From Fidelibacterota bacterium (GTDB taxonomy: Bacteria; Fidelibacterota; Fidelibacteria; Fidelibacterales; Fidelibacteraceae): a DNA stretch of 64,000 bases. Within the stretch, counting starts at the first letter, position 1; every line of letters starts with the position of its first letter. Where the stretch lies: assembly GCA_028716785.1 (NCBI GenBank), contig JAQUPD010000005.1:1-64000 (forward strand), written 5' to 3'. Shown here piece after piece: positions 29,917 through 35,644 of the stretch. Made by a program: the position numbers and the translations under genes. The notes under the pieces were generated by a model. That model was not told the DNA's origin, did not search any database, and saw only the letters and a program-made list of their open reading frames with translations.

Positions 29917-30139
29917 GAGATAGATAAAGGTTGCTCCGTGATGAATAATTTTATTTATAAACATGGAAGAAAATCTTTTGAGATAATGAGGGATTGAAAG
30001 GAAGGTATTTAGCGGAATGAAAAGAAATGGGGATGAAAATGGGGAGGGGAAGGAGAGAAAGATAATAGCCACATAACTAGAAAGTATGGTGAAAGAGTTC
30101 AAAAGTATCCTTTAGATTTTCAAGAGGTTTCTGTGATAG

Positions 30140-30960
30140 ACTTGAAAGAGAATGAATTGGAACGTACCATGGAAGTGATAAAGAAAAGATTTTATTTTAC
30201 GGTGTTTATCCACGATGTGGTGAGATTATTTAAGATCACCAATATTAGTAAGGTCAATTGCTGATGTATCCATAAAAAGCAAAAGATGAAAGGTAAACCA
30301 TACAACTCTATGGATATTATGATTTCTGTATGTTAAATAGGTAGAGGATAATCGGTCTTTTCAATATACGAGAAAGATTTGTCAGTTGACGAATTGATGC
30401 GTTTAGTTTGCCAAGTGTCATACGTATTGAACGGTGCTAACTGATGATTTAGAAAATCACGGTGTTGTAACAATCTAAAATACCAGGATAGTGCTGATTA
30501 AAGGGATTATTTACAGATCCTTGATGAAAAAGGTGTCCTGAACTTTTTGGTGTTGACATCAGGGAAGAATACATAAGTACGATTTGTGAGGTTTTTGCTG
30601 AGTCGGTAATTGTTGCGAAAAAATTGAAGGTAAATTTTGCCTGGATTTCACGCATTTGGCTATTCTGTAACAAACAAAGAGGGTGAGAAGAAGATTAGTT
30701 ATTGAGAGAAGCATCTGCTTTTAAATGTGCATGAGTGGCTGTCTCTGAAAGAGCACGATCGGCTTTTGGCTTTATTTAAGGGTTCTCCGATATTGGGTGA
30801 TGCTTATGGGTTAAAGGAGTTATTGAGGTAGATTTATGGACTAAAGGATTATGATTCCGTTTGTGGTTTATTACGATGTAGGTGTCGTATGGCTTATGGC
30901 TATGGGAACTTTTCAACCAGTATTTTCAGATATTAGCAACATCTCTTTGAATTTATTTTA
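30140..30960 (+). pseudogene. Decayed ISL3-like transposase
   Basis: Fragments in several frames: GVYPRCGEI; VDIREEYISTICEVFAESVIVAKKLKV; NVHEWLSLKEHDRLLALFKGSPILGDAYGLKELLR*IY; RMAYGYGNF. They occur in the order expected for ISL3-type transposases (zinc finger, VDMWxPYxxxVxEVFPNAxIVADKFHV, LLKN.E.L, AYGYRNF). Confidence 0.72.
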
Positions 30961-31283
30961 GGGCCAAACAGCCTGAGAAAATTTTGCAAAAATGTTCTTG
31001 ACTTTTTAATTTTACTTATAATAATATGATATAGCTATTTTAAAAATTCTTATTCTCCAATTTGTTAGGAGGTTATGAGTTTAAAATTGATTTGAGAACC
31101 TGAAGAAAAAAAGAAATTGGAGCTTATCATATTAAGGGCGCTATGGAATTAAAAAATGTGAAAGATGAGATCTATGGTATTGATTATCTTTCCTGTCTAC
31201 CTTATGCACAAGAAGGCAAGAATAATGACAAAGAGCCAAAATAATGCCGATAAGCACAACTGTATATATAAATTATTATTAGA

Positions 31284-31316
31284 ATGGGATTTTTCCATTT
31301 TTTGGTACAATCCCAT
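31284..31316 (+). repeat. 8-bp inverted repeat ATGGGATT ... AATCCCAT immediately upstream of the G10 tract
   Basis: 31284-31291 and 31309-31316. Confidence 0.7.
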
Positions 31317-31319
31317 GAA

Positions 31320-31329
31320 GGGGGGGGGG
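31320..31329 (+). promoter_or_regulatory. Poly(G)10 tract 5 nt upstream of the start codon, probable Shine-Dalgarno and possible phase-variation tract
   Basis: aagGGGGGGGGGtaattATG read directly. Confidence 0.65.
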
Positions 31330-31334
31330 TAATT

Positions 31335-32822
31335 ATGAAACTAAAAAGCTCATCGATATTTCTTTCTTTTATCATTTTACTTTTTTCAACAACTAATACA
31401 CTTGCTCAAGTAGGGAATGAATTCCCAATTGAAATTAGTGATGAACAAACTTTTACAACGAGCTTTGCTGAGGATGCAGATAAATACTTAATTGTGATGC
31501 GAAGAGAAAGCGAAACATCAGGCGCCGATATCGTCGCTCAATTTCATTCTAAAACGGATCACTCGTTGATTGGCAATCCAATTGTTCTTGGTTCAACTGT
31601 CATTTCACCTGAAGATTTTGATCTCGGACTTATTCAAGCTGCTTTTGATGGAGAAAGATTTTTAGTTGTTTGGACTCATGGTGAAAATGGTGGAATTCAA
31701 TATAGGTTTATTCATGCTCAAACATATGAACTAAGTAATACTTTTTCTGATGCGACTTTACCTGCTTGTTTAAGTATCAATGCTTTGCATTTTAATCCCT
31801 CAGTAAATAAGTATTTACTTATTTCTTCAATTAGACAACCCTCGGGGCATTACATAATAAAAAATTTCATTCATAGTGATGGATTTTTAGAATCCAGTTC
31901 CCCAATCTTTTCATTTTCAACAAGAAAAGAGAATTGTACAGCATTTGGTGATTCGAAGTATTTGATTGTTTCAATTAAAGAAGCTGAAGATTATGATTAT
32001 GAAGTGTGGGGAAGATTTATTCATCAAGATGGTTCTAACATAGGTTCAGAATTTTTAATTGATGGTAGTGATTACCCGAGCGACAATCCAATTTTTGTTA
32101 TGTATGTTGATGGTAAATTCATTTGTATTTTTCCTGAGCAAGAATCAACAGGATGGAAATTATATGCAAGAATAGTAAACACTGACGGAACAGTTCAACC
32201 GGAACGATATGTGATTTCTAATTCTGGTTGGCTTTCACCTTTTATGATTTTAGGTGATAATTCAATGCTGGTTACAAGCACATCAGTAAATCCAAATCCT
32301 GATTCTTGTTTTGTTTTAGGAAAATTTTTCGATTTTAGTCTAAATCCTATAGGTGATGAGTTTATAATTTATGATCAATTAAATGGTAAGGTTCCTGTTA
32401 GTGGAGTTGGTTCTTATGGAAATAATAAATTCTATGTATATACTAATAGAGTGGATATTGCGTTTACACCGGATTCAAGTATATATTTTTCAAATGGGGA
32501 TGTGTATGGTGTCTCAGTTGATGCCCTAACTGGAGTTGATGATTATGTGATTATTCCTGAGAAAATTGAATTATATCAAAATTTCCCTAATCCATTTAAT
32601 CCAAGCACAAAAATAAGTTGGCAGTCGTCAGTAAACAGTCATCAAACTTTAAAGGTTTATGATGTACTTGGAAATGAAGTAGCTACATTAGTTGATGAAT
32701 ATCGTTTAGCTGGAAACTATGAAATTGATTTTGATGCTTCAAACCTTTCCTCCGGTATTTATTTCTATTGTTTGAAGACAGGAAATCTTATCGAAGCGAG
32801 AAAGATGATTTTATTTAAGTAG
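31335..32822 (+). CDS. Secreted protein with T9SS type A C-terminal sorting domain
   Basis: Signal peptide MKLKSSSIFLSFIILLFSTTNTLAQ; C-terminal YQNFPNPFNPSTKISW...LKVYDVLGNEVATLVDEYRLAGNYEIDFDASNLSSGIYFYCLKTGNLIEARKMILFK. Confidence 0.92.
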   Translation: MKLKSSSIFLSFIILLFSTTNTLAQVGNEFPIEISDEQTFTTSFAEDADKYLIVMRRESETSGADIVAQFHSKTDHSLIGNPIVLGSTVISPEDFDLGLIQAAFDGERFLVVWTHGENGGIQYRFIHAQTYELSNTFSDATLPACLSINALHFNPSVNKYLLISSIRQPSGHYIIKNFIHSDGFLESSSPIFSFSTRKENCTAFGDSKYLIVSIKEAEDYDYEVWGRFIHQDGSNIGSEFLIDGSDYPSDNPIFVMYVDGKFICIFPEQESTGWKLYARIVNTDGTVQPERYVISNSGWLSPFMILGDNSMLVTSTSVNPNPDSCFVLGKFFDFSLNPIGDEFIIYDQLNGKVPVSGVGSYGNNKFYVYTNRVDIAFTPDSSIYFSNGDVYGVSVDALTGVDDYVIIPEKIELYQNFPNPFNPSTKISWQSSVNSHQTLKVYDVLGNEVATLVDEYRLAGNYEIDFDASNLSSGIYFYCLKTGNLIEARKMILFK

Positions 32823-32847
32823 TAATATCAAAATATCCAAAATCTTA

Positions 32848-32871
32848 AGCGGGTTCTAGCTTGCTTTTTTT
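32848..32871 (+). terminator. Putative rho-independent terminator after the T9SS-type gene
   Basis: AGCGGG-ttctag-CTTGCT (with GU pairs) followed by T6. Confidence 0.5.
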
Positions 32872-33639
32872 CAGTCTTATAACAACATGAATTATTTCAT
32901 AATTTTCTTAACAGTACCACTTATTTTATAAACATGACAATAACACTTATTTTAGTTAGCAATACAAATACTTGTGCATTTCTATCTAAGATTAATCAAC
33001 AATTTTTCTGTAGAAGGCATAGACTTGTTTTTTGCCTCACATTCATTAATATTAATGTTTTAGTCTATTCGTCCTGAGATCCATGTTTCATGCTGTTCCA
33101 TAAGGATACTGGGAATGTATTTCTAAAGTAACTATGGAGTACGCTGGTCCCGCAGCGAAGCGTGGCGGGATAACTGCACTTCAAAATATCCCCGGAAGGC
33201 TTTTCCTCTTTGCTGTCTGTATTAAAATAGCTCTACTGCCTATTTGCGCTTATAAAGGTGAGCATGGAGAACTTCACGTCCTCTCTCTGCATCACCTGAT
33301 TATAAATAAGCTCCAGACTGTCATAAACCTTCCTACCCGTATTCAATTGAGCGTTTTACAGAAAGAAAATGACACGACACTAAGAACCTATTTTTTATGA
33401 TAAGAAGAAAATGGGAATTCCCAAAAGAATTATATAATATAAGCAAAAAATATATACTTACATATAATCTTAAATGATGATATTCTTCACAGTGAGTGAG
33501 TAAAAATATTATTACATAACTAACAGAATATTTCCCATAATTTTTATGTGAAAATCTTAGAATGAATTTATTTTATTCCAAAAATCCGGTTATAGCGATA
33601 TTGCAATGGGATAAAAAATTTCCCTGGATTCTTTAAGAT

Positions 33640-34677
33640 TTATTTCTCCCATGGTAACAATTCGGGTTCGAGGGGGCGGAGAAATTTTAATCCATAAAAA
33701 TAGGGAAGGGGAATTAGATAAGATTTTGGTTTGCAAAAAAACTTGAATTTTTTTTCGTCCAATGAAACATTGTAAGCATGTATTTTAGGATTTTCAATTT
33801 TTGCCAACTCGTTGTGTTTTCTGTTTTTTTCATTGGTTACTAATGATTGGTTTACATATTCCATTAGCGGTTGTTTAATAACTTTAGGGGGCGTAGAATG
33901 AAGAATATTTACGAGTCCATCATCATCGACGATAATCAGACCATAATGACCAATCCAACGGTTTTTCTCATCGCCTCGGACTACATAAACCAAATCACCT
34001 GTCTGCAAAAAATTTGATGCTTGCTCAATATTTTCAGCGGGTATATAACTGAATAAAAGGGAATCTTTTGGGAAATCTGTTTCTAAAAAGTATCGTTCAG
34101 CAAAAAATTTCTGCTTATCATATCGGATCGTATCCAGATTTGTCGGAACATCTAAACTATCTGTAATGTCATAGACAAGCCAATCGTTATTGGTTTTCCA
34201 GTCATAAAGAGCGTAATGATTCCGGGTTAAAACACTAATTTCCCCATTCTTATATCGTAAATGCATTAAAGTCTTCATAAAGGAGGTCCAATCATAAGAA
34301 AGAGCCATAGCATACATGTGTTCGACAAAAACTACACAATCACTTTTATTTAGGACATAGAGGGGTTGAGAATCATATAATTCAAATGGGAATTCCCCTA
34401 AGAGATAAAGTTCATAAGGCTGATTGATATTTTTTTCTGCCAGATGACGTAAACGATCATAAAAATTTTCTTCTGTCTGAGACAGCCATTTGAGATAAAT
34501 ATCTATTTCATATTCATTAAAAGAATAAAGAGGGCGTGATTTCAAATCCTCAAGAACGATATTTTGCAGGGAGTCAGGCGTCAAATTTCCCCGCCATGTT
34601 TCACGATTTAAGGATACCTTTGTACTGCAAGACATTAGAAAAATTAAAGAGATTATAAATATTAGGGTTTTTTGCAT
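33640..34677 (-). CDS. DUF1460-type lipoprotein (N-acetylmuramoyl-L-alanine amidase-like fold)
   Basis: Lipobox LIFLMSC; LNKSDCVVFVEHMYAMAL; LRYKNGEISVLTRNHY; TGDLVYVVRGDEKNRWIGHYGLI. Confidence 0.82.
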   Translation of the reverse strand: MQKTLIFIISLIFLMSCSTKVSLNRETWRGNLTPDSLQNIVLEDLKSRPLYSFNEYEIDIYLKWLSQTEENFYDRLRHLAEKNINQPYELYLLGEFPFELYDSQPLYVLNKSDCVVFVEHMYAMALSYDWTSFMKTLMHLRYKNGEISVLTRNHYALYDWKTNNDWLVYDITDSLDVPTNLDTIRYDKQKFFAERYFLETDFPKDSLLFSYIPAENIEQASNFLQTGDLVYVVRGDEKNRWIGHYGLIIVDDDGLVNILHSTPPKVIKQPLMEYVNQSLVTNEKNRKHNELAKIENPKIHAYNVSLDEKKFKFFCKPKSYLIPLPYFYGLKFLRPLEPELLPWEK

Positions 34678-34747
34678 TATTATCTCCTTTTTCGTAAAAT
34701 ATCATTTAATTTTACGTAAAATTATCAATGGTGGAAATGAAATTACT

Positions 34748-35644
34748 ATGATAGCATCTCGTAAATCTCTTATTAATCAATCTGCTTATGTTTCTATCAT
34801 AGGGAATATTTTTCTTTTTGTCATTAAATATTGGGGAGGAATAGTTAGTGGTTCTATTGCGATCCTTGCAGATGCATGGCATACATTATCGGATACTCTT
34901 AGCTCAGTGGTTGTTTTAATTGGATCAAAAATTTCTGTCCGCCCAGCCGATAAAGAACATCCTTTTGGTCACGGTCGGGCTGAGCTTATTGCTGCTATTC
35001 TCATTGGGATGATGTTAGTGGGAGTTTCTGTGGAATTTTTCACGAAAGCATATAATAATTTCATAAATCATCAATCGGTTATCTATACTTGGCAAGCAAT
35101 TTTTGTTGTTTCTTTATCAATTATCTCAAAAGAACTCATGGCACAATATGCCTTTCGCATTTCTCACAAGACAGATTCTAAGTCGGTTCGCGCTGATGCA
35201 TGGCACCATCGGAGTGATGCTCTTTCCTCTGTTATTATTCTCGCTGGTATTTTTATTGGAAAATATTTTTGGTGGATTGATAGTCTACTTACCGTGCTTG
35301 TTGCCCTTTTGATTCTTTATTCCGCTTATGATATTATTCGAGATGCGTCTTCTCGACTTATGGGTAATCCACCTTCACAAAAAGTTATTGATCAAGTTAT
35401 GGAAATTGGCAAAACAGTGTCTAATAAAGAATTAAACATTCATCATGTTCACATGCATGAATATGGAACACATCGAGAGATGACCCTTCATATCAATCTC
35501 CCGAATAATTGGACCCTTGAGCGAGGTCACGATATTGCCAATGAATTAGAAAATCGTATTCGGGAAGAAATGGATATTGAAACAACTGTCCATATAGAAC
35601 CCCTTAATAAAAATAAAGATACCCAAAAGAAAACGCCATCGTAA
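34748..35644 (+). CDS. Cation diffusion facilitator family transporter
   Basis: SIAILADAWHTLSDTLSS; HPFGHGRAELIAA; DAWHHRSDALSS. Confidence 0.95.
   Translation: MIASRKSLINQSAYVSIIGNIFLFVIKYWGGIVSGSIAILADAWHTLSDTLSSVVVLIGSKISVRPADKEHPFGHGRAELIAAILIGMMLVGVSVEFFTKAYNNFINHQSVIYTWQAIFVVSLSIISKELMAQYAFRISHKTDSKSVRADAWHHRSDALSSVIILAGIFIGKYFWWIDSLLTVLVALLILYSAYDIIRDASSRLMGNPPSQKVIDQVMEIGKTVSNKELNIHHVHMHEYGTHREMTLHINLPNNWTLERGHDIANELENRIREEMDIETTVHIEPLNKNKDTQKKTPS

Follow-up and report, generated by a model that had tools for sequence, protein, structure and literature searches.

A ten-G tract as the probable, unusually long Shine-Dalgarno sequence of a T9SS-secreted protein gene in a Fidelibacterota genome

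Within the window, by which we mean the whole 64,000-nt stretch of DNA analysed, a run of ten G (G10) lies directly before the gene for a secreted protein of 495 aa. An earlier note, made from the sequence alone, placed this run at 31320-31329, 5 nt before the start codon ATG 31335; on re-reading these positions are exact, and the spacer reads TAATT. The tract is the sole Shine-Dalgarno (SD)-like stretch within 20 nt upstream of that ATG, again as claimed. Also correct are the arms of an inverted repeat further upstream and the observation that the frame of a second ATG, at 31284, continues through the tract into that of the gene, resulting in an open frame of 512 aa. The locus reads as follows.

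30998..31027, plus strand: best sigma-70-like match upstream (TTGACT, 16-18 nt, AATAAT or TAATAT), about 300 nt 5' of the G10 tract; the count of such matches is not above regional chance expectation
31284..31316, plus strand: inverted repeat ATGGGATT (31284-31291) / AATCCCAT (31309-31316), exact 8-bp arms, 17-nt loop; chance level
31284..31334, plus strand: MGFFHFLVQSHEGGGVI, an N-terminal extension that would be read in frame from ATG 31284; it lacks an SD and is unlikely to be used
31320..31329, plus strand: G10 tract, probable SD, read from the sequence; pairs with CACCTCCTTTCT, the tail of the 16S in this genome
31330..31334, plus strand: spacer TAATT from tract to start codon, read from the sequence; the same at any tract length
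31335..32822, plus strand: gene of the 495-aa orphan secreted protein, starting at ATG 31335, with a Sec signal peptide and, at the C-terminus, a T9SS sorting domain of type A (residues 417-492)
32847..32876, plus strand: terminator-like stem-loop and T run, 3' of the gene; the number of such elements is not above chance

The signal peptide at the N-terminus was recognised on inspection and also picked out by a crude rule, and the sorting domain is matched by PF18962 (43.7 bits, 3.3e-11) and TIGR04183 (38.3 bits), both over the curated cut-offs. The genome encodes SprA (TIGR04189; G000:C4:1570-7356, 735 bits joined) and contains a related sorting domain at about 49 places. With a Sec signal peptide, a type A sorting domain and a translocon represented by SprA, the protein has the hallmarks of type A T9SS cargo, and the assignment in the earlier note holds. 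Residues 1-400 have no relative in the 18 other genomes of the family. Peptide-pattern scans of contigs, whose reach is limited to close relatives, found no relative of the protein, and a sequence search of the PDB returned no significant match. The AlphaFold single-sequence model is unusable (pLDDT 37.9). A search of the genome for a second copy of the locus matched nothing but the interspersed repeat downstream. Apparently, the gene is monocistronic and its protein a lineage-specific orphan.

The surroundings of the gene show two further features. An interspersed intergenic repeat of up to ~370 bp occupies window positions 32990-33358 and has seven or eight more matches in the genome, at 71-88% identity. 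Comparison of 29917-35644 with four related genomes reveals that an amidase-like gene (33640-34677) and a cation-efflux gene (34748-35644) are inverted as a pair relative to the upstream YedK gene, and the orphan gene sits at the junction of this inversion.

What is the role of a G10 tract in this position? The genome's own 16S 3' tail, GGATCACCTCCTTTCT, is a canonical anti-SD, and pairing of G10 with this tail is predicted at -15.3 kcal/mol with a 5-nt spacer, so that the tract combines complementarity with the usual spacing of an SD. Genes in the window carry SDs of the GGAG, AGGAG or GGGG type upstream, in a survey where SD strength helped to decide which gene starts were picked. In the window, GGGGG precedes an ATG by 4-8 nt in 11 cases, of which the G10 tract supplies 4, compared to one case for the reversed pattern. 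Such use of SDs is unlike that in Flavobacterium, whose genes lack them (PMC6847099). The G10 tract is thus very probably the SD of the 495-aa gene, as the earlier note had read it.

How unusual is a tract of this length? By shuffling, G10 is expected 0.08 times per window. For the 2.19-Mb genome as a whole, a first-order model predicts ~3.1 runs of 10 or more G and exactly one is present, which makes the tract length unsurprising genome-wide. G/C runs of at least 7 are in fact depleted (40 against ~186 expected): 31 have length 7, 8 have length 8, and the remaining one is the G10 tract, no other G/C run in the genome reaching 9. The over-representation of long tracts that would mark a homopolymer contingency locus is therefore absent from this genome, where long runs are rarer than chance. 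Of 21 runs of length 7 or more that we examined, 19 fall inside long open frames, and G10 alone occupies an SD slot; such slots cover ~0.3% of random same-strand positions, assuming ~2,000 genes. It is placement, not length, that stands out genome-wide.

The earlier note went further and proposed that the tract is a candidate phase-variable switch: slippage would alter the strength or spacing of the SD, or the reading frame in which ATG 31284 would extend the protein, and so tune a surface protein. Several observations speak for such a switch. In bacteria known for slippage, tracts as long as G10 can slip, the usage in C. jejuni phase variation counting tracts of 7 or more (PMC4965091); the gene behind the tract encodes a secreted protein, and the genome's sole run of 9 or more sits at a control site. 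The tract may be hypermutable. But would a change in length matter for initiation?

We computed anti-SD pairing for tracts of 2 to 14 G, using energy models that do not include ribosome kinetics. The predicted pairing energy drops from -4.2 (G2) to -12.9 (G5) and -15.8 (G6), and then stays between -14.9 and -15.9 up to G14. The best spacing-limited site has -9.8 and is unchanged from G5 on, because gain or loss of a G shifts only the 5' side of the tract, while the distance from its 3' edge to the ATG remains 5 nt. In these models, lengths 6 to 14 are predicted to give nearly equal SD strength and spacing, and we infer little effect of length. The claim that length changes would alter either property thus finds no support in the calculation. 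Cofold energy, on the other hand, still falls with length, from -25.6 at G6 to -33.6 at G14, which leaves room for a modest quantitative effect; a small influence of tract length on initiation is possible on this basis.

About five of the tract's G's, whichever these are, could pair with CCUCC in the 16S tail. With the 3' edge held 5 nt from the ATG, initiation should be strong, and similarly so for each length above 5. Slippage would be expected on general grounds, yet would be near neutral for initiation. We consider it likely that the tract is an unusually long SD of the T9SS-secreted protein gene, at which initiation proceeds about equally at all tract lengths above 5.

Could the elements upstream of the tract restore a switch? 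Perfect 8-bp inverted repeats with loops of 3-20 occur 40 times in the window, compared to 35.1+/-9.5 in Markov sequences, and the region of the hairpin folds with a z of 0.38. As a regulator the hairpin was rejected on these two values. The centroid fold moreover leaves the G10 tract unpaired, and the adjacent hairpin is not supported as a part of the proposed switch. ATG 31284 lacks an SD (predicted anti-SD pairing +0.2 kcal/mol), and a fusion from this start would place 17 residues ahead of a good signal peptide. The proposed frame switch of the extension is correct as to the frame, which is open through the tract, but its start is unlikely to be used. If ATG 31284 were used, G9 or G12 would end the upstream ORF 2 nt before the gene's ATG, G10 or G13 would fuse the N-terminal extension to the gene, and G8, G11 or G14 would make the upstream frame overlap the gene out of frame by 62 nt. 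A three-state translational switch can be drawn from this arithmetic, in which tract length modulo 3 would choose between translational coupling (G9/12), N-terminal fusion ahead of the signal peptide (G10/13) and out-of-frame overlap (G8/11/14), with the hairpin gating ATG 31284 and a phase-varying T9SS surface protein as the outcome; we judge it very improbable. If the tract is a plain, long SD, the upstream hairpin and the in-frame ATG 31284 would be incidental.

We also looked beyond this gene. The 39 other sorting-domain genes of the genome have at most G3 before the chosen start; a G-rich SD shared by T9SS genes was rejected accordingly (0/39 exceed G3), and the lack of such a tract at any of them counts against the switch. 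The family set comprises 19 genomes, the present one included, and relies on crude gene calls and a crude signal-peptide rule. These genomes hold 58 G/C runs of 9 or more; 57 distinct tracts were read, and the crude gene call places 38 of them between genes. Among genes within 250 nt downstream of the tracts, 5/26 have a signal peptide by the crude rule (6 if the gene at L231, whose start is misplaced, is counted), compared to background rates of 8/50 and 28/137. A lineage rule that long G/C tracts lie beside secreted genes was rejected on these figures. By this rule the tracts show no concentration at signal-peptide genes across the 19 genomes, a further point against the switch.

In the family genomes, tracts of at least 9 G lie 0-5 nt before a start five times in the G orientation, while the C orientation yields none within 11 nt (two-sided sign test 0.0625, from a small sample). 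The genes behind these five G tracts are unlike one another: a T9SS protein, a lipoprotein, a transporter, a transposase and a kinase. G-oriented tracts before unlike genes are what plain SD use would be expected to produce, and this is most simply read as some of the family's long G runs serving as SDs.

Is the length of the tract real? Homopolymer counts are error-prone, the genome is a 71-contig draft, and an untranslated tract offers no reading frame as a check, so that G10 might be a product of sequencing or assembly, the true length being different or shorter. However, the tract is located mid-contig, on a contig of 81 kb, tracts of 9-14 are also found in relatives, and two related genomes share an identical C10 tract. 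We therefore give an artefact only a small chance.

That C10 tract merits description in its own right. Read on the gene's strand, it lies between TTGACA and TATATA in two relatives, at L172:1502-1511 (G001:C1:2036071-2036080) and at L163 (G005:C10), about 42 nt before a secreted-protein gene resembling an FG-GAP repeat protein. Its sequence is identical in both, and the present genome has a partial 89% match that lacks the tract region. By its sequence, this is a classical promoter-spacer layout like that of Neisseria porA/opc, and it would be a stronger candidate for phase variation than the G10 tract. Nearby, L172:1613-1700 holds a short repeat of the ATTCTTCATTCATC type, scattered through genomes of the genus and matched dozens of times in G001 and G005. 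In another relative, a T10-G9 run at L231 (G008:C116:5881-5889) stands directly before TATAAT, a promoter placement, and the protein encoded downstream has an N-terminus resembling a signal peptide. Finally, at L080/L233 (G010:C85) a G9 run coincides with a change of frame in an IS-type transposase gene, which is either genuine or due to a homopolymer error.

With predicted pairing and spacing flat from G6 to G14, an upstream ATG that lacks an SD, a hairpin at chance level and long G runs scarce in the genome, a phase-variable switch at the G10 tract is weakly supported, and we regard it as unlikely. The part of the earlier proposal that stands is the tract as the very probable SD of a T9SS cargo gene; an effect of length is not supported by prediction, and the hairpin is at chance level.

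How does this SD compare with known poly-G systems? In T. pallidum, where 17 poly-G tracts were studied, tracts of similar length lie just upstream of genes, many of them for surface proteins (the outer-membrane protein genes tprE/G/J/L and tp0126; also tp0381 and tp0986), and two are recorded at -7, near the SD slot: that of tp0381 is highly variable and that of tp0986 hardly so (PMC7864442). The -7 tracts, the tp0381 tract being so variable, are a precedent in favour of a switch. In that species, however, variation in length has been measured, the tract is part of the promoter and the effects tested concern transcription, whereas the present tract lies in the SD slot. Neisseria porA/opc (as summarised in PMC7864442) likewise have a homopolymer in the control region of surface-protein genes, but it acts on promoter spacing, not on ribosome binding as here.

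Two leader systems show graded effects of length, and these we count against the length-neutral SD reading (PMC8295292, PMC11898584). In H. pylori, the 5' leader of tlpB has a homopolymeric G run that is read by the small RNA RepG, with an outcome set by the length of the repeat between 6 and 16 G (PMC8295292). Could the G10 tract also act through an RNA partner, its length tuning the binding of a C/U-rich small RNA? It shares with the Helicobacter repeat its class of position in the 5' leader and a similar length, but Rfam has no match to known RNA elements in the region and no small RNA is known here; we find this very improbable. The M. tuberculosis espR leader also contains a G homopolymer in its 5' untranslated region, whose length is predicted to affect access to the ribosome-binding site (PMC11898584). 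The espR tract is 144 bp upstream of the gene, distant from the SD, and acts via RNA folding, whereas the present tract is very probably the SD itself.

If the tract truly switched its gene, this would be homopolymer phase variation at the ribosome-binding site of a T9SS cargo, in an uncharacterised lineage. A poly-G tract flush with a fixed spacer should, however, tolerate changes in length, and a G-run in the SD slot is thus not by itself proof of a switch. For C. jejuni, tracts in an SD context have been set apart as expected to have quantitative, not on/off, effects (PMC13317227).
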